Below are positions 1,521-48,738 of a stretch of 48,738 bases of DNA, piece by piece. The stretch covers positions 1 to 48,738 of the forward strand of contig JAPMTS010000040.1 in NCBI GenBank assembly GCA_026552955.1. Reading direction: 5' to 3'. The translations under genes and the position numbers were made by a program. This stretch comes from Candidatus Methanoperedens sp. (lineage in GTDB: Archaea; Halobacteriota; Methanosarcinia; Methanosarcinales; Methanoperedenaceae). The notes under the pieces were generated by a model, which saw only the letters and a list, made by a program, of their open reading frames with translations, was not told the DNA's origin and did no database searches. The first letter of the stretch is position 1; each line of letters opens with the position of its first letter.

Positions 1521-1872
1521 GATAGATAGGCTTCACCTCGGATTTTATACGTTCTATCAAATAAGGGCTTATAGATTTCTCAGTTACAAGATCAACCTTA
1601 ATGCCAAGTATCTCTGACAGGTCCCTTTCAATTCTAACAAGATCTAACAGGCTCTTTCTCATGGAAAAACTCGCCAAAAAATCTACATCGCTCTCTTCTT
1701 TCTGCTCTCCTCTGGCATAAGAGCCGAACAGACCAAGAAAAGAAATGTCATTCTTTTTGCAAACTCTTATGATTGATTCTTCTTTAGTTTCATCTATCAG
1801 CAGATAATCTGCCAATTTTTGAGAAATTTTACTGGAACTTTCTCTTTCAACATTAGTATTCTTCTTTCTCAT
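1510..1872 (-). CDS. mntA: MntA-type nucleotidyltransferase (first copy)
   Basis: 120-residue nucleotidyltransferase with intact GS-x10-DxD (GS 50-51, DVD 62-64). It carries a charged N-terminal extension of about 30 residues that the downstream copy lacks. It overlaps the end of the HsdR-like gene by 4 bases and runs 11 bases into hepT. In known systems the MNT protein is the antitoxin of HepT. The extension may give it different partner specificity, but that is inference. Confidence 0.85.
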   Translation of the reverse strand: MRKKNTNVERESSSKISQKLADYLLIDETKEESIIRVCKKNDISFLGLFGSYARGEQKEESDVDFLASFSMRKSLLDLVRIERDLSEILGIKVDLVTEKSISPYLIERIKSEVKPIYHEG

Positions 1873-4646
1873 ACTGCAAGCACCTCATTTAACTCTTCTA
1901 AGATATTATTCAATCCATTACCGAAGAGCTGGTATGCCTTCACGATCCCTCCCTTTTCATAGAACGGCGAAAGTTCAAAATCCTCATTATCAATGCTCAA
2001 AGATGTTGCTATATGATCTTTTATCATTACAAGCCACTCGGTCTGAATTTGTGTGAACCTCCCTCCCGCTTTCTCCTGCTGGGCGCGCCACTTTTCAAAG
2101 CGCTGGTTCACTGTTTCAGGGAAAGGCTCAAGCACTTCACTCTTTCCGGAGGCAAAGCGTATCAATGAAATGATGTTCGTCAGAAGCTTTTGCACACCTG
2201 CGCCTTTTACCTTTGACTTATCCAGTTGTTCATAAGCCTGCCAGAGTAGTTCCGGCGTGAGTTGATATGGCGGTTTTCTTATTGCTTCGGCAACCTCTCT
2301 TATCTCCCCGTATGTCAGGTGGCGCTTGCTATAGGGCTTGCTGTAAATTATCTGCAGGGCGGTAATTTCATCTTTATTCTCTTCAATGAATTTCTTGAAA
2401 GTATCCACAACAGTGCGGGCTTTTTCCTTTGCCTGTTCATCATACCCTGCGAAAATGACCGTGTCTTTACTTGTTATATCGATATCCTGTTCATTCCTGT
2501 TCTTGATCTCAATGAGAAGGTTCCTGAGCTTGGGATTATCAAAAGGAATGCAGGCGCTTTTCGCCAGTTCCTTCCCAGCGTTTTTGATTTGATCATCTGT
2601 TGGCGTTTCTGTTTTGAAAATATCCCGTGCCTTCTCAAATTTCTTATCAGGGTCAACAGCATCCAGAAGGCCGTTGGCAAGCACTTTTAAAGACTTGCCT
2701 TCTGAGGCCTTTTCAATATCCGACCTGTCTTTTTCATCGATTTCCCTATCCATCTTCGAAAGTCTTCCTGCAAGAGACGTAAGATTATCTTCATCCCTGA
2801 TCCCGGCCGCGATCGACGTGATGAGCTTATCAAATGAAACACTCTTTTTTCGCTCAAGGGGGCGCGAATCAGTTTTATCATTCTCACACACTCCCACTGC
2901 ATCCACTATCATAAAATGGGTTTTGGCAAGAGCATCCTTAGTGATAGCCTGGAAATCCGTATGAGATATTGTCCGGGTGCCCCGTCCTTTCATCTGCTCA
3001 AAAAGAACCCTTGATTTGACATCCCTCATGAACAACAGGCACTCAAGCGGCCTGATATCTGTCCCGGTTGAAATCATGTCCACGGTAACAGCTATCCGGG
3101 GATTATAGGAATTACGAAAACTGGCAATGAGGTCTTCAGTTTTGTCTCCAACAGTTCGATAGGTTATTTTTTTGCAGAAGTCATTGCCTTTACCGAATTC
3201 CTCCCTGATAATATGGACAATATCCTCCGCATGCGAATCGTCTTTGGCAAATACAAGGGTCTTCGGGATTTCCGTCCGACCTGGAAAAATCTCCGCAGGC
3301 AGCTTCTCTTTAAAGGTCTTGATAATTGTCCGGATCTGGTCTTTTGCAACCACGCTCCTGTCCAGTTGATTCGAGGCATATTCTAAAGGTTCATCAATTT
3401 GTTCCCACCTGACCTTTCTTGTAAGTTTATCTCTTTTATCAATATAATCTCCTGCTTCAACACGGCTGCCTTTTTCAGTGATATTGGTTTTGATGCGGTA
3501 AACCTCATATCCCACATTCACCCCGTCTGCAACTGCTCTTTCATGGCTATATTCCATGACAAGATTCTGGTTAAAAAATCCCAGTGATTGTTTTGATGGT
3601 GTGGCAGTCAGTCCTATTATGAACGCATCAAAATATTCGAGAACCTGCCTCCATAGACCATAGATTGAACGATGGCATTCATCCGTGACAATGAAATCAA
3701 ATGTCTCAATAGGAATTTGAGGATTGTACGAAACATCCTTTACCCTGCCATCCGGTGAAATCTCAAAAAGTGACTGCTCTTCGTTCTCAGGCTGAAATTC
3801 CGTTTCTCCGCTTAACATTGAATAAAGCCTCTGGATAGTAGTGATACAAACCTTGCTCACGGGATCAATTGTATTTGATGTCAGGTGCTGGACATTGTAT
3901 AGCTCTGTAAATTTCCTGCCATCATCAGGGGTAATATATTGCGCAAATTCCTTTTTTGTCTGGCGTCCAAGGTTGCTCCTGTCCACCAGGAAAAGAATCC
4001 TTTTGGCACCTGCGAATTTTATCAGGCGGTAAATGAAACTCACGGCAGTATAGGTCTTTCCGCTTCCTGTTGCCATCTGCATAAGCGCTCTTGGTCTTAT
4101 TTGCGCAAAGGATTGTTCAAGGTTCTGTATAGCTTCAAACTGGCAATCCCTGAGCCCTTCTCTTATCAATGGATGATTGGAGGCCATTGTTTTCAATCTT
4201 GACCTGAGGGTGTCCGGTTGAGAACTCCATTCCATTAAAGTCTCAGGTTTGTGAAATGCAAAAACCATTCGAGACCTCGTATCCGTGTCTCTTATATCCC
4301 GGAAGTAGGTTTCTGTACCGGTGCTCTCATAAGAAAAAGGAGGTGAATCCTCAACTTTTGGAAGCCTGTTCGGAACACCCGTTAAATATTTTTCTGTCTG
4401 CTCTGATACTCCGCTTAACGTTGTTCCTTCCGGTTTAGCTTCAAGGACCCCTCCGGCGCTTCTATCTAAGAATAATAAATAATCGGTAAAACCTGAATCC
4501 AGTGGAAATTCACGCACAGCTACGCCCAGAGATGCACCCAGATTAAAGTCCGGATAATCTTGAATTGTCCATCCTGCACTTTCAAGCAGTTTGTCGATAT
4601 GTTGTCTGGCTTTCTCTTCAGGTTTCTGGTTGACCATAATCTCCAT
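1869..4646 (-). CDS. Type I restriction R-subunit-like nuclease/helicase (HsdR, EcoEI type), without M or S genes nearby
   Basis: 925-residue nuclease-helicase. The N-terminal PD-(D/E)xK nuclease is visible as D55 in FTDYLLFLD and E69-A-K71. The superfamily 2 helicase core follows: Walker A MATGSGKT 191-198, DECH 322-325, LTATP 346-350, and the motif VI region QMKGRGTRT at about 555-565. The C-terminal 250 residues match the EcoEI_R_C type. HsdR normally acts in a complex with HsdM and HsdS, but upstream lies an unrelated DUF72 gene and downstream lie MntA/HepT/MntA, so no methylase or specificity gene is linked in the window. A TATA-like stretch (4664-4676) sits about 20-25 bases before ATG 4646; a second in-frame ATG is at 4637. 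It may act alone, with distant hsdMS, or as the effector of this operon. Confidence 0.85.
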   Translation of the reverse strand: MEIMVNQKPEEKARQHIDKLLESAGWTIQDYPDFNLGASLGVAVREFPLDSGFTDYLLFLDRSAGGVLEAKPEGTTLSGVSEQTEKYLTGVPNRLPKVEDSPPFSYESTGTETYFRDIRDTDTRSRMVFAFHKPETLMEWSSQPDTLRSRLKTMASNHPLIREGLRDCQFEAIQNLEQSFAQIRPRALMQMATGSGKTYTAVSFIYRLIKFAGAKRILFLVDRSNLGRQTKKEFAQYITPDDGRKFTELYNVQHLTSNTIDPVSKVCITTIQRLYSMLSGETEFQPENEEQSLFEISPDGRVKDVSYNPQIPIETFDFIVTDECHRSIYGLWRQVLEYFDAFIIGLTATPSKQSLGFFNQNLVMEYSHERAVADGVNVGYEVYRIKTNITEKGSRVEAGDYIDKRDKLTRKVRWEQIDEPLEYASNQLDRSVVAKDQIRTIIKTFKEKLPAEIFPGRTEIPKTLVFAKDDSHAEDIVHIIREEFGKGNDFCKKITYRTVGDKTEDLIASFRNSYNPRIAVTVDMISTGTDIRPLECLLFMRDVKSRVLFEQMKGRGTRTISHTDFQAITKDALAKTHFMIVDAVGVCENDKTDSRPLERKKSVSFDKLITSIAAGIRDEDNLTSLAGRLSKMDREIDEKDRSDIEKASEGKSLKVLANGLLDAVDPDKKFEKARDIFKTETPTDDQIKNAGKELAKSACIPFDNPKLRNLLIEIKNRNEQDIDITSKDTVIFAGYDEQAKEKARTVVDTFKKFIEENKDEITALQIIYSKPYSKRHLTYGEIREVAEAIRKPPYQLTPELLWQAYEQLDKSKVKGAGVQKLLTNIISLIRFASGKSEVLEPFPETVNQRFEKWRAQQEKAGGRFTQIQTEWLVMIKDHIATSLSIDNEDFELSPFYEKGGIVKAYQLFGNGLNNILEELNEVLAV

Positions 4647-36804: not shown

Positions 36805-37347
36805 ATGCTAACGCTTGGAATTGTGAATACTTATGATAAAATAAAGATCCACGAAGCTCATTACCGAAGCATTGCAAGGGCAGCGCCCATCGCTTATGCG
36901 TTTGGCTTCAATCTTGCGCTTTTTGACTATCCTTTCAAGATGGACGCCTTTGAACTTGTGGATTTCGTAAAAGACAAAACAACTATTGGCGGATCAGGAA
37001 AATATCTTGCAGAGCTTTTTGGCACAGGGAGGTTCACTGTATTCGACCTGCCTGAAAAAGGATTCCAGCCGCAGTTGGGCTCTCCTGTTGTAACAACGTC
37101 GCATCCTGATAAGAAAAAAGAGATTCTGCTCCCTGCCCTTTCTGAATTTATTATGAGAAAAAAATCCTTTCTTTTCCTGATAGGATTAGGTCATAAAGGA
37201 CTATCGTCGGATCTATTTGAAATGGCCAGATATCATCTGGATATAACCTCAAAAGGAGTTTCACTTGAAACATGTACGGCAATAGGCGCTGTTCCTGCAG
37301 TTATTTCAGGGTACGTTGAATCAAAAAAATCCACAGCTTTAAGTTAG
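36805..37347 (+). CDS. DUF531 protein
   Basis: 180 residues matching the archaeal DUF531 family: LGIVNTYDKIKIHEAHYRSIARAAPIAYAFG at the start, KTTIGGSGKYLAELF in the middle and FLFLIGLGHKGLSSDLF near the end. Its function is not established. It is found mainly in euryarchaea. It follows the arginine decarboxylase by 49 bases; the linkage may be chance. Confidence 0.75.
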   Translation: MLTLGIVNTYDKIKIHEAHYRSIARAAPIAYAFGFNLALFDYPFKMDAFELVDFVKDKTTIGGSGKYLAELFGTGRFTVFDLPEKGFQPQLGSPVVTTSHPDKKKEILLPALSEFIMRKKSFLFLIGLGHKGLSSDLFEMARYHLDITSKGVSLETCTAIGAVPAVISGYVESKKSTALS

Positions 37348-40820: not shown

Positions 40821-41300
40821 ATGAATATTAAGAAAATAAGAACATTGATAATTGCTCTTATAGTATTATTGTTTATGGTATCAGTTGTTTCTGCTGACGA
40901 TAAAGCAAAATTCTATGCAAGTAAGAGCTATTATCACCATGACCAGGATGTAAAACTTACCTTGAAGAATACGGAGAAGAAATCCATATTTGTGCCATGT
41001 AATGGTGAAATAAAGATTAAGAATAAAAAGGGGTCCACTGTTGCAAAACTTGACTGGGATCTAAAAGGTGATGGTTGTGACGGAAACGCCGATGAAGGAT
41101 TCTTAAGTGTCAGCGGTGCTCCTACCGGCAATTATGTTAATCTTTATGAGCTTAAACACGATCATAAAATCACTAAAAATTGGGACGATGATGATCGCCA
41201 TAATGTGAAATATGGGAAATATAAGGCTTATACAAAGTATTTTAACCATTATTTGAATCCAAAAGAAGTACATACCGATACATTTGCGCTAAAAAAGTAG
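40821..41300 (+). CDS. Small secreted protein with a beta-rich domain
   Basis: 159 residues. Signal peptide (about 1-26, cleavage near VSA-DD), then a beta-rich domain of roughly 130 residues (ASKSYYHHDQDVKLTLKNTEKKSIFVPCNG). It shows a paired cysteine pattern (PCNG ... DGCDG) that could form a disulfide. The layout of an Ig-like or BsuPI-type domain is possible but not certain. GGAGG (40809-40813) is an ideal ribosome site. It follows the cytochrome gene by about 130 bases and may be co-expressed. Confidence 0.68.
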   Translation: MNIKKIRTLIIALIVLLFMVSVVSADDKAKFYASKSYYHHDQDVKLTLKNTEKKSIFVPCNGEIKIKNKKGSTVAKLDWDLKGDGCDGNADEGFLSVSGAPTGNYVNLYELKHDHKITKNWDDDDRHNVKYGKYKAYTKYFNHYLNPKEVHTDTFALKK

Positions 41301-41384: not shown

Positions 41385-42941
41385 CTAAGAATAATTAACC
41401 CTTCCCATTATAGTTCCATTGAGCTTCTTTAAAAGTTCAATATCCTGCTCCATAAAAGCTCCAGTTGTTATCGATAAAGTTGTACTATTCGAATAATACG
41501 CCGGCTCAAATGTCGCAATAATAGTATATGTACCCTGAGTAACTTCAAACGAATAGAACCCGTTTGAATTAGTCTTAGTTGAGAGGCCGGTGTCAGTTAA
41601 TACCTCCACTCCTGCAAGACCCGATTTACTAACACTGTCCATTATTGTACCATTAATGAAACTTCCGGATATGAGTGGATCTGATACATTCCATATCCAG
41701 GTCTGCACGACACTGCCATTAGAATTATTTGCGACTGCACTCAGCTCCCATGTGCCTGATTTTGCACTTGTGTTTGTATAATTCGCAGCAATGACCCTTG
41801 AATTTGAACTCACCTGAATCCCGTTGATATACCATACCAGGTCCACAGTCTGGTTAAACTCAACGTTGAATGTTTGGGTTGCTCCCTCATTATCAATGAT
41901 GGGGGAAATAGGAGAATAGCTCGTGATATTTAAAGGAGGATTTGTTGATGATATGGTTTTGGATATTGTATATGATCTGGTAATCGGTGTATCCCATGTT
42001 GGATTTTCATGTTTCCAGGTCAATATCAGGTCATTTGCTGCATCGATATGCGTATAAATGATGGATGTATAGGGGTCTTCCCCATCCACGGTTTTTTGAC
42101 CTGATACTCCTGCATCCACATGATACACACCACCTACTGTATTTACAGTGGCGAAGTGGGTATGTGCACCCACGAAAACTGCAACATTCTGGGATACAAA
42201 AAGATCCTGTAGTTTATTTCTATTTGCAGGATCTTTATCTAATGAATCACCTACATGCCGCGACCTGGGATACAAAGGTTCATGGCCAACAACTATCTTC
42301 CAGGGGTTTGATGCCCTTGATAGATCATTGCTTATCCAATTATAAAGAGCATCGGGTATGTAACCACCCTCACCATTTCCATATTTGAACCATGCATCAT
42401 TATTTGCCCCATTCCAGTATTCATTTATATTGACAATATGAATTTCACCCACATCAAATGAATATGTTGTCTTATCTGTTCCTGCAGGGCCTGGTGTTAA
42501 AGGTATTATTGAATTTGCGTACATTGCGCGAATTGCATCTACATCCCCACTTGTTCCAACTTCATGATTTCCCACTACATAAAATATCGGTATATCTGTT
42601 ACATTTGATGCCGCATATGCTGTTTTTGTTTGTGAAATCTTATCCATATCGCCGATCATAATTATGGCATCAACCCTACCGGTTGGCGATTGAGGAATAA
42701 CTTGATTTAAGTCCCTGGTCAATTCTGTTATTCCCACAGTTCCAAATTTTGATGGTCTTGCATCGCCAAGATATGCTAGAGTTGCTCCGACTGAGTTTGA
42801 ACTTTCAATACCCGGATTTGAAGAAAGGTTTGTATCTGAATATGCTATTGCCAGAACCGGATAAATGAGCAGCAGAAAAAAAAACATAAGTGCAATTTTT
42901 TCTATATTCATCGTATTTGATTTTCTTGCAATTGAACTCAT
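41385..42941 (-). CDS. Secreted calcineurin-like metallophosphoesterase with surface modules
   Basis: 518 residues. Signal peptide (about 14-34), then a calcineurin-like domain (about 52-340): GD in AYLGDARP (59-60), GD in IMIGDMD, GNHE 124-127, a VVGHEPLYP histidine, and GAHTH. The DxH of motif I reads D-A-R and the second motif lacks the usual second aspartate, so the metal site is reduced. Next come a PKD-like segment (about 345-425) and a carboxypeptidase-regulatory-like module ending ELLKKLNGTIMGRVNYS. A GTGAT just before ATG 42941 suits this start. Probably a surface phosphatase or phosphodiesterase. Confidence 0.8.
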   Translation of the reverse strand: MSSIARKSNTMNIEKIALMFFFLLLIYPVLAIAYSDTNLSSNPGIESSNSVGATLAYLGDARPSKFGTVGITELTRDLNQVIPQSPTGRVDAIIMIGDMDKISQTKTAYAASNVTDIPIFYVVGNHEVGTSGDVDAIRAMYANSIIPLTPGPAGTDKTTYSFDVGEIHIVNINEYWNGANNDAWFKYGNGEGGYIPDALYNWISNDLSRASNPWKIVVGHEPLYPRSRHVGDSLDKDPANRNKLQDLFVSQNVAVFVGAHTHFATVNTVGGVYHVDAGVSGQKTVDGEDPYTSIIYTHIDAANDLILTWKHENPTWDTPITRSYTISKTISSTNPPLNITSYSPISPIIDNEGATQTFNVEFNQTVDLVWYINGIQVSSNSRVIAANYTNTSAKSGTWELSAVANNSNGSVVQTWIWNVSDPLISGSFINGTIMDSVSKSGLAGVEVLTDTGLSTKTNSNGFYSFEVTQGTYTIIATFEPAYYSNSTTLSITTGAFMEQDIELLKKLNGTIMGRVNYS

Positions 42942-43200
42942 TTTCCATCACTATCCTGCAATTCAAATAACAATTTTATAATTAAAATATATTGATCGTT
43001 TTTAAAGTTTTTTGAGTTTTAGACGATGAAAAATGGTTTAATTTTGATTTTTGAGTTATAATAAATTGTTTTTTTGTTTTTAATACAAAATTATAGCTTT
43101 ATTTAACATATAAGAAGCTTCAATGAGATATTAACCTATACAATTTTTTTTTATGTGATAAAATTCGAGTCAATGATTTGAATTATCGTTTGCAGATCCT

Positions 43201-45207
43201 TTATGCAATAATTCCGGTTATATTTCCTGTGGGCTTCTTCAAAAGTTCAATATTTCTTACCTCAACTGCACTCAGAAGTGAAACAGTTGTACTATTCTGA
43301 TAATAAAATGGCTCTAAAGTCGCAGTAATATTATATGTACCTGAATTAATGGAAAACGAATAGAATCCGGTTGTATCAGTAATCGTTGAGAGGCCGGTGT
43401 CCGTTAATATCTTTACTCCAGAAACACCCGATTTACTATCGTCCATTACTGTACCATTAATGAACCTCACCCATTCAACTGAAACCGGAGTATTATCCGG
43501 AGAAGAAGTTCTTCCCGCACTATCAGTAGCGGTCAAATTGACATTATAATATCCATTGTTTGAGTATGAATGTGCGGGATTCGTAAGGTTGCTTGTCCCG
43601 CCATCTCCAAATGACCAATTATATGAATATGGGGCAGTACCTCCTGAAGCAGAACCTGTAAAATTAATCAAAACATTAGGAGTTCCAGTGTACGGTCCTG
43701 CAGCATTGGCAATGAGATCTGATACTATCCATATCCATGTCTTTACTATGGTACCATTGGAATTATTGGCAACTGCGCTCACGTTCCATGTGCCTGATTT
43801 TGCACTTGTATTAGTATAATTCGCGGCAGTAACGCTTGAATTTGAACTTACCTGAGTACCGTTGATATACCATGTCACGTCCACAGTTTCGTTAACCGTG
43901 ATGTTGAATGCTCGGATTGCTCCCTCATTATCAACGATGGGAGATAACGGAGCATAGTTTATGATATTTATGGGCGAGGGAAGTGATGGGGCCTGGATAT
44001 TTTGACTTACTGAAAGTGCGGACATATTTCCCAAACCTGAATTATTCCATGCCCATACCGTGATATCACTCCAATTGGATGCACCCGCAGAATCATTGTA
44101 GTATTGGTCTGTTCCATTGCACCATACTCCATTTACACTGATATTATATGCGTCAGTTACTACACCAGTTCCTGCTTGCCATGTATGGTTTACCCAGTAA
44201 TTACCGATATCGCTTTGCAAACCTATAGGTTGTGGGGGTATTGTTGATGGTGATATCGCTTTGCTAATTATATATGATGTAGAAACAGGTGTGTCCCAAG
44301 TTAGATTCTCATGTTTCCAGGTCAATAACAAACTACCGGTATCATTGGTATATGTGTATAATATAGATGCAAAATTATCTTCCGGACCAAGAGAATCATA
44401 ACCAGCAGGATTAGGTCCGCTACCTGATGTACCTGAATTTGCATGAAATACCCCGCTTATGTTTTGAAGACCTGCGTTATGAGTATGTCCACCAATGAAA
44501 AGGTCAACATTTTTGGATACAAATAATTCCTGGAGGTTATCTCGATTGGTTATGTTTGCATCTAATGAATCATTTACATGTCTGCCTACTGGATAAAGGG
44601 GATCATGCCCAACAACGATCTTATAATTGGTAGTTTCAGACAGATCATTACTTATCCAATTGTATAAAGCATCCTGAATATAGCCATTACCATATGAATC
44701 ATCAGTTGCTCCATCCCAATATTCATTCATGTTTATAACATGCATCTTACCAACATTCATTGAATATGTGGTTTTATCCGTACCTGTTGGTCCAGATATC
44801 AATTGTATTGGTGATTCTGAATACCTTCCTTGAATTAAGGCTGTTTCACTATTCGAACTACCTTCATAATTTCCTATTACAAAATATATTGGTACGCTTT
44901 TTACAGTTGAAGCATTAATAGATTGTAATGTGTTTGATATTGTTTTCATATCTCCCATTAAAAACAATGCGTCTACTTTACCCGTTGGTGAAAGTGGCAA
45001 AATTTGATCAAGGTCTTTGGTTAATTCCTGGATATCAGAAGAGCTCTTAGGTTCCGCATCACCAATATAAGCTATTGTTGCCCCTGTTGACACCATATCG
45101 ATTGAACCTACAGAGAATACTACAAATGCCAAAATGAGTATATTATTAATTATTTCATTATTAATCTGTATTGATTTTTTTCCATTCACCCTAAACTTTT
45201 TTACCAT
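43201..45207 (-). CDS. Secreted metallophosphoesterase-like protein with fibronectin-like, PKD and tail modules
   Basis: 668 residues, paralogue of the protein at 41385. N-terminal signal segment (about 20-38). The phosphoesterase domain (about 42-330) has AYIGDAEP (D50), MGDMKT, then GNYE at 112-115 where the usual GNH histidine is tyrosine; GHDPLYP and GGHTH remain. Three surface modules follow: an Ig/fibronectin-like one (about 335-440), a PKD-type one with GTAPYSYNWSFGDGGTS (about 510-580), and the shared tail module ending PTGNITGIIA. Catalysis looks less likely than in the sister protein. TATA-like sequence at about 45228-45236 supports a leaderless start. Confidence 0.78.
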   Translation of the reverse strand: MVKKFRVNGKKSIQINNEIINNILILAFVVFSVGSIDMVSTGATIAYIGDAEPKSSSDIQELTKDLDQILPLSPTGKVDALFLMGDMKTISNTLQSINASTVKSVPIYFVIGNYEGSSNSETALIQGRYSESPIQLISGPTGTDKTTYSMNVGKMHVINMNEYWDGATDDSYGNGYIQDALYNWISNDLSETTNYKIVVGHDPLYPVGRHVNDSLDANITNRDNLQELFVSKNVDLFIGGHTHNAGLQNISGVFHANSGTSGSGPNPAGYDSLGPEDNFASILYTYTNDTGSLLLTWKHENLTWDTPVSTSYIISKAISPSTIPPQPIGLQSDIGNYWVNHTWQAGTGVVTDAYNISVNGVWCNGTDQYYNDSAGASNWSDITVWAWNNSGLGNMSALSVSQNIQAPSLPSPINIINYAPLSPIVDNEGAIRAFNITVNETVDVTWYINGTQVSSNSSVTAANYTNTSAKSGTWNVSAVANNSNGTIVKTWIWIVSDLIANAAGPYTGTPNVLINFTGSASGGTAPYSYNWSFGDGGTSNLTNPAHSYSNNGYYNVNLTATDSAGRTSSPDNTPVSVEWVRFINGTVMDDSKSGVSGVKILTDTGLSTITDTTGFYSFSINSGTYNITATLEPFYYQNSTTVSLLSAVEVRNIELLKKPTGNITGIIA

Positions 45208-45448
45208 TACCCATGAAACCGCATATTATTATATATACATTTCTATTCATACATGTATATAATTACAATCATAATTATACAAATGTATATGAATATTTCC
45301 ACAGGTTTAAGAAGAACAGTCATCCCTGAATTTATCACTATTCACATTGAACTAATGGCATTACTCTCATTCAGACGATAACACATTTACAAAGTTAAGT
45401 ATGAATATATTTTACTCAAAAAAAAGAAAAAAGATTGACTCATTTGAA

Positions 45449-47836
45449 TCACTTTTTTTTCTTGTTTGTGAAATTATTATTATCTGATTTCATACCATTC
45501 TTCAATTTAATTTTCATGGATTTAGAACTTGTATGCTTCCAGCCCTTTTTGTTTTCTTCGCTTATTGTATATTTACCTGCAGGAAGATTATCAAATATGT
45601 AATATCCAAGAGCATCAGTGCGTATTTCTCTCTTGATTTTTTTGACATTTTTACTTTTACCAACCAGTTTGATCTTCCAGCCCGGTAGAGCGCTCTCACC
45701 AGCATCCCATCTACCGTTCCCATTCATATCATTAATGTTGAATCCTGAGATACTACCGACCTGGTTTGAAATGATAGATGTAACTAAAACAGAAGCAGTA
45801 TCTGGAGAAGACGTTATTCCTGCATTATCTTTCACAGTTAAAGTAGCAGTATAAGATCCCGGATTTGTATAGGAATGATCAGGGTTCGCAAGACTGCTTG
45901 TCCCGCCATCCCCAAAGTTCCAGGAATACGAATATGGCGCACTGCCCCCTGAAGCAGAACCCTTGAAATTTATCAAAACACCGGGAGTTCCGGTATAGGG
46001 ACCATTAGCCTCAGCAATTGGATTGGACGGATTAGATCCTTTTGGACCTATATTTGCCCTGATACTTTGAATTACCGGGGTCTTTGAAGAGTCAGTTGTA
46101 CTGAGTGAACATCTTGAATATTTATAATCGTTCCCCAAATTAATCGGATAATTAACATTCGGAGCTGCGTTTGGTTTTATCGTAACCCAATTATTATTAT
46201 CGGCGCTTGCCATGACATCCACTTTCGTTATTGAGCTATCCCATGTTCCGAAGCATCCTAACTCTTTTATTTCTTCCCCTGTTTTGATCACGGAAACAAG
46301 GCTGCGAGTGACTGTGCCTGCTGTAGTATGTGCATTATTCCGTATGGATGCAAGTTCCGAATCTGATAGTTTACGATTGAATATTCTTACCTCATCTATG
46401 GTCCCCTTAGTGAAATCCAATCCTGTGGTTTGAATATAGGTATCCTTCCCCCCTATGCTCAATAAAGCAGTGTTTACGGCATTTGTGGGACAGTTGCTTG
46501 TTGTTTTTACAGTTGTGCCATCTACTATCAAACTGCATGTGGTTCCTGACCTGGTATATGCGACAAAATGCCACAATCCGTCCCTGTGTTCCTGTGTATC
46601 GTATGACTCAACTGCTTTAGCACCATCTTTTGTTATGGAGCCATGCAATAAATTATCTGTAAGTTCAACTTTATACCATGATTTCGTGCTCGCAGTGGCA
46701 GTACTGCCTTTTCTTAATATGTCCGAATCATCATTGCTCACTCCTTGTTCCTGTTTCAGATAATATGATATCGTAAAATCACCTGCTAATCGGAAGGCTG
46801 GGTCATCTTTGAATAAAACCTTATTATCAATACCATTAAAATAAATTGCTTTTCCATATTTCCCATCGGTATAGGTACCTGTTCCGACAGCGCCTAAAAG
46901 ATCACCCAGGGGCCTGTTTAAGATATTTTCATTATGGATTATTTTTCCGCTTTCTTCATCGAACCTTGTATATAATGAGTAATCCGTAACTGTTTGTTTG
47001 AGCTCCACATTACCGGTAGCTTTAACGTCAGTAGTTTGGGATAATGTAACATTTTCGCCCCATTTATTAGCGCCAATTATGTCCCATGTCCTGATCTCAA
47101 CAATGACATTTCCCGTCAATTTATCGAGTGCGTTATTATTAAAAACCAATCGTATTTGACCGTTCTCTATCTTGAATTCATAATCCGGTTGGAAAAGATA
47201 TGTTACGTCCTGGAATACTTTTCCATCCTCCCAATAATCCCGGGGTGTGTCGTCATGTACGACGATATCTTCCATCCCTGCCCTGAAATGAAATCGGCCG
47301 TATTTAATATTATGTTTATCTTCATATTTAGTCCTGGGTTTCTTGGATTTCAATTTATATGGAAGATCAATAGATCCTCTATTTGAATTTTGAGAGATTC
47401 CTTTCCCCTGCAATTCCGATTTTGAATATTTTAGTTCATAACTGATTGAATTTGGCTTCAGTTCAAATACTGTATTTGCTTTTGGTATGCTCAGAGTAGT
47501 ATCATCTACTCTGAAATCAGTTGTTGTTGCATTTGCAGAGATTAAATAAGTCCAACTTCCATTAGTAATATTCAATTCATCGTTTGGTCTCCATTCTCCA
47601 TCATATCGAAGAAAATTCAAAGCCCCATTTATAATATCCTTTGACCCATCGTCGTGATATATTATATTATATCCATCATGATATTCTACCGTTTGTGCGA
47701 GCGCAGGGAGACTGAGAAATTGAATAAGTAAGAGACTTATTCCACATATGAAAAATAGTCTTGAAATACCTGGCAACGATACTTTATTAATATTATTAAG
47801 TATATTTTTTTTTTCTTGCATAATCAAACACACCAT
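45449..47836 (-). CDS. Secreted LamG/PKD/SdrD-B-like surface protein
   Basis: 795 residues. A long signal segment ends near SLPALA-QTVEYHDG. A concanavalin/LamG domain lies at about 330-490 (GKAIYFNGIDNKVLFKDDP, then GTIDEVRIFNRKLSDSELASI), followed by an F5/8-type or jelly-roll segment (about 500-590) and a PKD domain (about 605-690). The end is an SdrD-B/prealbumin-like repeat (NDMNGNGRWDAGESALPGWKIKL, then YYIFDNLPAGKYTISE) and a basic tail. It is probably a structural or sugar-binding surface protein. In-frame ATG 47821 (MQEKKN) is an alternative start. Confidence 0.82.
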   Translation of the reverse strand: MVCLIMQEKKNILNNINKVSLPGISRLFFICGISLLLIQFLSLPALAQTVEYHDGYNIIYHDDGSKDIINGALNFLRYDGEWRPNDELNITNGSWTYLISANATTTDFRVDDTTLSIPKANTVFELKPNSISYELKYSKSELQGKGISQNSNRGSIDLPYKLKSKKPRTKYEDKHNIKYGRFHFRAGMEDIVVHDDTPRDYWEDGKVFQDVTYLFQPDYEFKIENGQIRLVFNNNALDKLTGNVIVEIRTWDIIGANKWGENVTLSQTTDVKATGNVELKQTVTDYSLYTRFDEESGKIIHNENILNRPLGDLLGAVGTGTYTDGKYGKAIYFNGIDNKVLFKDDPAFRLAGDFTISYYLKQEQGVSNDDSDILRKGSTATASTKSWYKVELTDNLLHGSITKDGAKAVESYDTQEHRDGLWHFVAYTRSGTTCSLIVDGTTVKTTSNCPTNAVNTALLSIGGKDTYIQTTGLDFTKGTIDEVRIFNRKLSDSELASIRNNAHTTAGTVTRSLVSVIKTGEEIKELGCFGTWDSSITKVDVMASADNNNWVTIKPNAAPNVNYPINLGNDYKYSRCSLSTTDSSKTPVIQSIRANIGPKGSNPSNPIAEANGPYTGTPGVLINFKGSASGGSAPYSYSWNFGDGGTSSLANPDHSYTNPGSYTATLTVKDNAGITSSPDTASVLVTSIISNQVGSISGFNINDMNGNGRWDAGESALPGWKIKLVGKSKNVKKIKREIRTDALGYYIFDNLPAGKYTISEENKKGWKHTSSKSMKIKLKNGMKSDNNNFTNKKKK

Positions 47837-48031
47837 TTATCTTGATCTTAACTAACATTTTGTTAATAAGAATATATCGATAATTTTTATAGTTTTTTGA
47901 GTTGAAAAGGACTCAATTATAGTTCAATTTTGTTTTCTGGTTAATAGCAGATTTTTTTTTATAATAATATAGAATGCTAGCATTTATTTAACTATGAAAA
48001 GCCTAGCCAGAGCAACTGAAGTTAATTATTA

Positions 48032-48736
48032 TTAAGCATTATTGACCCTTCCTGTTATGGTCCCAGTCAGCTTCTTTACAAGTGAAAAATCCCTCACAAT
48101 AGTTCCCGATATTGCCGTGACCGATGCACTTGTTGGAGAATATGTCGGATCTAGCTTCGCCGTAATAAGATATGGTGTACCTGCTGTAGTGGCAAACGAA
48201 TAGAACCCTGCGGCATTGGTGACCGTTGACATGCCTGTGTTCGTGGATACCCTCACACCAGAAAGAGCCATATAAGGGGAGAGGCTGTCCCTTACCGTAC
48301 CGTTAATGAAACTTGTAGATTTTGGATCTATTCTTGCCCCCATACTTTGAATTACCGGGGTCTGTGATTTTAGCGGATCATTTGTATTTAGTTCACATCT
48401 GAAATATTTATAAGTGTTCGGCGTGGGAACAGTATAATTAGTTGAATATGCATTGGATTGAATTGTGACCCAGTTGACATTATTGGTACTTGCAGAAACC
48501 GTCACTTGAGTTGTTGATCTATCCCATGTTCCATAGCACCCTAACTCTTTAATTTCCAAATTTCCGATAATAAAAGAAGAAAGGTCACGAGTGATTGTAC
48601 CTGTTGCATAATGTTCATTATTTTTTATGGATGTGAGTTCCGAATCTGTTAATATCCGGTTATATATTCTCACTTCATCTATGAGTCCCTCGATGTAATC
48701 ATCCGGGAAGGAGGAATCCTTCGCTCCTATACTCAA
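48032..48736 (-). CDS. LamG-type surface protein, 5' end beyond the window
   Basis: The last 234 residues of a gene whose start lies to the right of the window. The end of a LamG domain (LIDEVRIYNRILTDSELTSI) and a jelly-roll segment (about 50-130) closely resemble the protein at 45449. The C-terminus is instead the shared tail module (FINGTVRDSLSP through VRDFSLVKKLTGTITGRVNNA). It therefore mixes features of the LamG and phosphoesterase neighbours. Confidence 0.85.
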   Translation of the reverse strand: MSIGAKDSSFPDDYIEGLIDEVRIYNRILTDSELTSIKNNEHYATGTITRDLSSFIIGNLEIKELGCYGTWDRSTTQVTVSASTNNVNWVTIQSNAYSTNYTVPTPNTYKYFRCELNTNDPLKSQTPVIQSMGARIDPKSTSFINGTVRDSLSPYMALSGVRVSTNTGMSTVTNAAGFYSFATTAGTPYLITAKLDPTYSPTSASVTAISGTIVRDFSLVKKLTGTITGRVNNA

Positions 48737-48738
48737 TT

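Follow-up and report, generated by a model that had tools for sequence, protein, structure and literature searches.

Candidatus Methanoperedens genomes encode secreted proteins of unrelated kinds that end alike, and the question raised by the locus described here is what such a common end is for and what reads it. It bears on a wider matter, since the mode by which large cytochromes are held on the cells of anaerobic methane oxidisers is not settled. The DNA analysed, referred to below as the window, is a stretch of 48,738 nucleotides from Candidatus Methanoperedens sp. (assembly GCA_026552955.1, contig JAPMTS010000040.1) and makes up the entire contig C2 of genome G000, an archaeal genome of 2.48 Mb.

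Three window proteins with one C-terminal module

A preliminary description of the window proposed that three proteins share one C-terminal module, and both their alignment and a profile search of the genome bear this out (Table 1); all three are encoded on the minus strand. From FINGT to the stop the copies are 87-92 aa long, two of them being 57% and 52% identical to copy 1, and the residues invariant in the alignment include FINGT, GFYSF and KK..G.I.G. The 795-aa LamG protein of the same gene row does end otherwise, as had been noted, with an SdrD_B-like domain. The motif of the first strand of the module (FINGTV) recurs in its last part, G-x-I-x-G-x-V.

Two further strong copies were found by a profile search of G000. 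All five have E-values of 1e-31 or better against the genome, and are therefore more than chance matches. Against CarboxypepD_reg (PF13620; cut-off 32.3) the three copies of the window reach 30.9, 29.8 and 22.7 bits; the copies on contigs C9 (33.4 bits) and C12 (35.3 bits) pass this cut-off, and an NCBIfam scan gave no module-specific match. The C12 protein (L013, G000:C12:20987-22180) is secreted and keeps the K-x-x-G-x-I-x-G strand behind its internal module and ahead of a Kre9/KNH-like domain.

Table 1. Module-bearing and contrasting features in the window and elsewhere in G000
Feature	Position	Strand	Basis
518-aa secreted calcineurin-like phosphoesterase, module at end	41385..42941	-	ORF; Metallophos 3.6e-12; CarboxypepD_reg 30.9 bits
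Terminal module copy 1, regulatory sandwich plus tail	41388..41669	-	Profile match E 3.4e-49; alignment
Tail of copy 1, KLNGTIMGRVNYS, proposed donor strand	41388..41426	-	Tail conservation; copy 2 model
668-aa secreted phosphoesterase with PKD domain, module at end	43201..45207	-	ORF, Pfam
Terminal module copy 2	43204..43473	-	Profile match; structure predicted, mean pLDDT 91.8
Tail of copy 2, KPTGNITGIIA, proposed donor strand	43204..43236	-	Free in predicted structure
795-aa LamG/PKD protein, same gene row, without tail (contrast)	45449..47836	-	SdrD_B 43.1 bits
LamG-type protein cut by contig end, module at end	48032..48738	-	ORF; Laminin_G_3 fragment 23.3 bits
Terminal module copy 3	48035..48319	-	Profile match E 6.9e-46
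Tail of copy 3, KLTGTITGRVNNA, proposed donor strand	48035..48073	-	Sequence
Module copy, C-terminal behind beta-propeller head	G000 C9:40926-41192		Profile match
Module copy, internal, followed by Kre9/KNH-like domain	G000 C12:21287-21562		Profile match

Elsewhere in the window there are a type I restriction R-subunit-like gene (1869-4646; EcoEI_R_C, ResIII) and a gene for a secreted protein of 159 residues without clear family (40821-41300; best Pfam match FlgD_ig, E 0.087), and neither Rfam families nor tRNA genes were detected in the window. A DUF531-family-like gene (36805-37347) lies about 4 kb from the tail genes, and relatives of it adjoin tail proteins at G004:C6:23848-25530 and G024:C33:2739-4427.

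Position of the module in relatives

The search covered 34 genomes of the family, 185 of the order and 392 sampled from the phylum, 30 of the 33 other family genomes in the collection being of the same genus as G000. Order matches of at least 60 bits were fetched and their positions determined with a 41-row model. Those of at least 65 bits end no more than 7 residues from the stop in 85 of 92 cases, and none of the 50 below 65 bits is terminal; the latter are ordinary regulatory repeats, eleven of them on reading frames truncated at a contig end. A model restricted to the sandwich, lacking the tail, gave 89 matches of at least 65 bits, of which 82 end no more than 25 residues before the stop. 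The seven internal strong matches comprise four in G028, the C12 copy of G000 and two in proteins with a second, terminal copy; the strand is retained in three internal copies (C12, G004 and G013).

Terminal copies occur in 15 of the 185 order genomes, 13 of the genus and two of another family, and the module is also present in Candidatus Methanoperedens records and in relatives, for example BLZ2. A truncated gene or an assembly artefact is ruled out by the 85 terminal copies in these 15 genomes. Among the 54 tail proteins counted as complete, 47 have an N-terminal hydrophobic segment; the remaining seven, all kept in the count, include seemingly broken frames or masked bases.

The preliminary description had named one finding that would speak against it, namely the module lying equally often inside proteins. 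This objection fails because the strong matches are overwhelmingly C-terminal, though seven are internal, and the idea of an attachment or sorting domain gains support from that position; attachment itself is what we infer from it.

Heads carrying the tail

The picture of a constant tail on variable heads is likewise upheld, as the Pfam families of the heads differ widely. Multi-haem cytochromes account for 36 of the 85 terminal-tail proteins, with 5 to 54 CxxCH motifs each, and a Pfam scan of 52 tail proteins gave Cytochrome_C7 in 23, subtilase in 11, NosD in seven and beta-helix in seven. The S-layer domain (PF07752) is on none of the tail proteins among the matches listed, by eye and with shared contigs checked, so that a protein seems to carry either the tail or a fused S-layer domain. 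Cohesin heads, which had been read by eye on the C12 protein and three small tail proteins, were dropped: the Pfam scan of the C12 protein contains no cohesin, and neither cohesin nor dockerin is among the 25 of 33 families listed for the 52 tail proteins.

Several side observations concern these proteins and their surroundings. A multi-haem protein of 1614 residues (L014, G000:C1:36761-41605) carries two ordinary internal regulatory repeats, in contrast to the terminal module. Judged by eye, signal peptidase I-like genes lie near tail genes in G005, G022 and G026, and genes for cytochrome-c assembly membrane protein-like products in G005, G006, G007 and G025; regions with genes common to several genomes are found near tail genes at G005:C1, G006:C7, G022:C17 and G026:C82.

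Fold of the module and the free tail

An AlphaFold model of copy 2, built from 13 rows, has a mean pLDDT of 91.8 with values of 91-97 for the body by blocks of ten, and its best Foldseek match is 2nsm (E 3.9e-6), with 1qmu and 5aq0 also found; the best solved structures are carboxypeptidases N and D. The confident model and these matches identify the module as a transthyretin-like sandwich. The last ten residues have a pLDDT of about 70, with no strand past residue 77, and the tail thus lies outside its own domain's fold in the model, as would be expected of a donor strand. The terminal G-x-I-x-G had at first been assigned to the module itself; the evidence favours instead a separate, free strand, probably destined for a partner.

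This tail of about 12 residues follows the pattern K-(P)-(T)-G-x-I-(T/S)-G-x-V-x-x. Over 71 tails (75 terminal rows less four short rows) the lysine is found in 69, each of the two glycines in 71, the isoleucine in 69 and the valine in 63, and the mean pairwise identity is 0.71 for the tail against 0.43 for the body. The motif is present in 83 of the 85 tails, with lysine at its first position in 79 and arginine in four; neither residue stands there in any of 21 ordinary repeats. Five residues follow GxIxG in 50 of 74 tails and four in 12, and a hydrophobic stretch overlaps the module in only one of 54 proteins. Judged by its sequence, the tail is the strand A that would open a following domain in a tandem array, the rest of that domain being absent.

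A proposed partner protein without strand A

When the genes flanking tail genes were clustered, one family of proteins about 560 residues long emerged, with members next to tail genes in six genomes. These proteins start with a signal peptide, followed directly by a regulatory domain whose sequence sets in after the I-x-G of strand A. In ten partners, 10-14 residues (mean 12.0) separate the predicted cleavage site, read by eye, from the GA of strand B, and in complete domains the glycine of IxG precedes GA by 11.2 +/- 1.1 residues (n=98). Alignments to PF13620 start at 13, 6, 4, 5 and 6, 6, 4 in the partners, one scanned partner having no match, and at 1-2 in complete domains. With cleavage so placed by eye, the first domain of the partner, the proposed acceptor, lacks the strand that corresponds to the tail, and in two examples from elsewhere (L182 and L261) signal-proximal regulatory domains retain strand A. 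A single-sequence fold of the BLZ2 partner reached a pLDDT of 51.

One copy of the partner, signal peptide included, is present in each of G004, G005, G006, G007, G008, G013, G023, G024, G030 and G048, that is, in 10 of 15 tail-bearing genomes and none of the 170 others of the order (Fisher p 3e-13; 3.5e-5 within the genus; kinship ignored in both), and in the sample of 392 phylum genomes it was found in G007 and G048 only. N-terminal and whole-protein models detected only generic regulatory domains in the tail-bearing genomes G000, G022, G025, G026 and G051, for which completeness is 95%, 95%, 63%, 74% and 80%, respectively; incompleteness alone would predict about one partner-less genome, against the five seen. 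Since a tail gene lies less than 300 bp from the contig end in both G025_C66 and G022_C101, the partner could, at a guess, lie just beyond. Searches of viral contigs gave one weak match for the tail and none for the partner.

Gene order, fusion and SLH domains

In eight of the ten partner genomes a tail gene stands directly upstream of the partner on the same strand, at a distance of 80-250 bp in six; in G013 the end of the upstream gene is visible at the contig start, and in G048 the gene was placed by an exact 127-base overlap of two contigs. The partner's neighbourhood contains a broken tail gene in G008 and none in G030. G028 has no terminal tails and instead encodes four fused proteins, three with cytochrome heads and one with a subtilase; each is a single chain that runs from the module through strand A and the remainder of the partner domain into partner-like repeats, an order that matches that of the gene pairs elsewhere. 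An NMD3 tree, which represents one gene from 30 of the 34 genomes, places G028 as sister to G007, which has the split form, and distributes the tail-bearing genomes over several branches among tail-less ones. In a further G028 protein (L206, G028:C9:13806-17186) a multi-haem part is joined to a partner-like domain and repeats with no module between.

Three SLH domains (E 3.2e-45) form the end of the G048 partner, which is the only SLH protein found in the 28 genomes searched, none having been found in the other nine partner-bearing genomes. No known surface-binding domain is present in these nine partners, the bodies of which consist of weak DUF5719-like repeats or of repeats without family.

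A docking model and its rivals

We propose, with a probability of about 0.6, that module and terminal strand form a docking tag by which many clients are fixed to one surface anchor through donor-strand complementation. The sandwich would fold alone and present its last 12 or so residues as an unattached strand that matches strand A; a secreted partner, usually encoded just downstream, would begin, once its signal peptide had been removed, with a regulatory domain wanting strand A; and the tail would insert into that domain and complete its fold, non-covalently by default. Because the tail would complete the partner's fold, clients as different as multi-haem cytochromes, subtilases, beta-helix proteins and phosphoesterases could all be held on a single cell-surface anchor. 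The basis in sequence and model is the C-terminal position, the free tail, the truncated partner domain, the gene order, the co-occurrence, the fusion and the SLH domains of one partner, from which we infer the cleavage site, the binding, the surface location and the strength of docking. Against the proposal stand the five partner-less genomes, the three internal copies that keep the strand, the nine of ten partners without a surface domain and an overlap of about 4-5 residues between tail and partner, both of which contain the x-V-x-x stretch, so that one must yield.

Among the other explanations, the tail or module might be read by something else in the envelope, such as a glycan, an S-layer protein or a secretion factor, with the downstream protein being just one more surface protein of these islands. 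The genomes in which no partner was found, the occurrence of S-layer proteins in 16 of 16 genomes tested and the resemblance of the module fold to many surface domains all accord with this, yet it leaves unexplained why the downstream protein should miss exactly the strand that the tail supplies, and why the two are fused in G028; we consider it improbable. Rather less still speaks for an evolutionary relic, in which an ancestral chain of head, module and anchor was split by a stop, the heads multiplied and the leftover strand A lay idle. The fused form in G028 and the order of head gene before anchor gene fit a split or a fusion, and the sister position of G028 to G007 is in keeping with it; an idle end should drift, however, whereas the tail is the best conserved part, with a K or R at a place where ordinary repeats have neither.

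Two further readings have very little in their favour. A processed sorting signal, with K-P-T-G in the role of L-P-x-T-G and a sortase-like enzyme cutting the protein and linking it to the envelope, would explain a strong short motif so close to the C-terminus. Sortase and archaeosortase signals include a hydrophobic segment and a basic end, and these are missing here, because 62 of 74 tails end 4-5 residues after GxIxG and a hydrophobic overlap with the module is confined to one protein; we have rejected a signal of this type. Slighter yet is the chance that the module is an ordinary carboxypeptidase-regulatory repeat that happens to come last. It has the same fold and matches the same Pfam family, in the window copies below the cut-off, but the matches fall into two score classes by position and the tail pattern is constant, and an ordinary internal repeat is contradicted by the terminal position of the strong matches.

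The docking model remains our preferred reading. It narrows the question to a tail of about 12 residues and a small domain, both of which can be tested in vitro.

Comparison with known systems

The module sandwich has the fold of the CarboxypepD_reg or transthyretin-like domains (PF13620, PF13715), and the first domain of the partner matches PF13620; the difference is that one domain would appear to be divided between proteins, strand A on the clients and the remainder on the partner. Donor-strand complementation, in which a strand completes another protein's sandwich, is known from chaperone-usher pili, TasA fibres and the archaeal thread filament. The likeness is that a strand of one protein would complete the incomplete sandwich of another, whereas here many unlike clients would each offer a C-terminal strand to one anchor, and a filament of like subunits is not implied. 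A constant C-terminal part on variable heads is also a property of type IX C-terminal sorting domains and of sortase and archaeosortase signals; the tail proteins share it but have no C-terminal hydrophobic segment, and their reader would be the partner protein. No equivalent tail or tail-partner pair was found in the literature searched, which covered few subscription papers and preprints.

In the organisation of many clients on one anchor the docking model resembles cohesin-dockerin systems, and PMC9012536 describes such systems with SLH anchors, to which the SLH end of the G048 partner may be compared. Neither cohesin nor dockerin was found in seven partners scanned at E 0.01, the L206 row (G028 fusion) not being counted. 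The large multi-haem cytochromes of ANME include MHC-A, -B and -C, of which MHC-C is without S-layer domain and C-terminal membrane helix, according to PMC9012536. The tail proteins also include large secreted multi-haem cytochromes, and the tail, which does not figure in the sections consulted, would anchor cytochromes that lack the anchors named there. If the model is correct, one anchor and a docking strand common to many clients would explain how the 36 multi-haem cytochromes among the 85 tail proteins are held, and a large part of all extracellular cytochromes in Methanoperedens would be fixed to the cell by that anchor.

SpyTag-SpyCatcher and KTag were engineered from a CnaB domain, and CnaB2 and FbaB structures are among the fold matches of the module. 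In both cases tag strand and catcher would derive from one sandwich of related fold; the present system would be natural, with the first strand placed at the C-terminus, and a covalent bond is not indicated. The tail presumably lacks a lysine at the position of the CnaB bond, although the near-invariant tail lysine, which by our reading of the sequence lies outside the strand, leaves room for such a bond. Whether archaea sort proteins by a natural tag and catcher, with strand A on client C-termini and the domain remainder at the mature N-terminus of a single-copy anchor, we regard as an evenly balanced matter; removal of the anchor's signal peptide would then leave the socket open, and the pair would be a natural counterpart to the engineered tag-catcher pairs.
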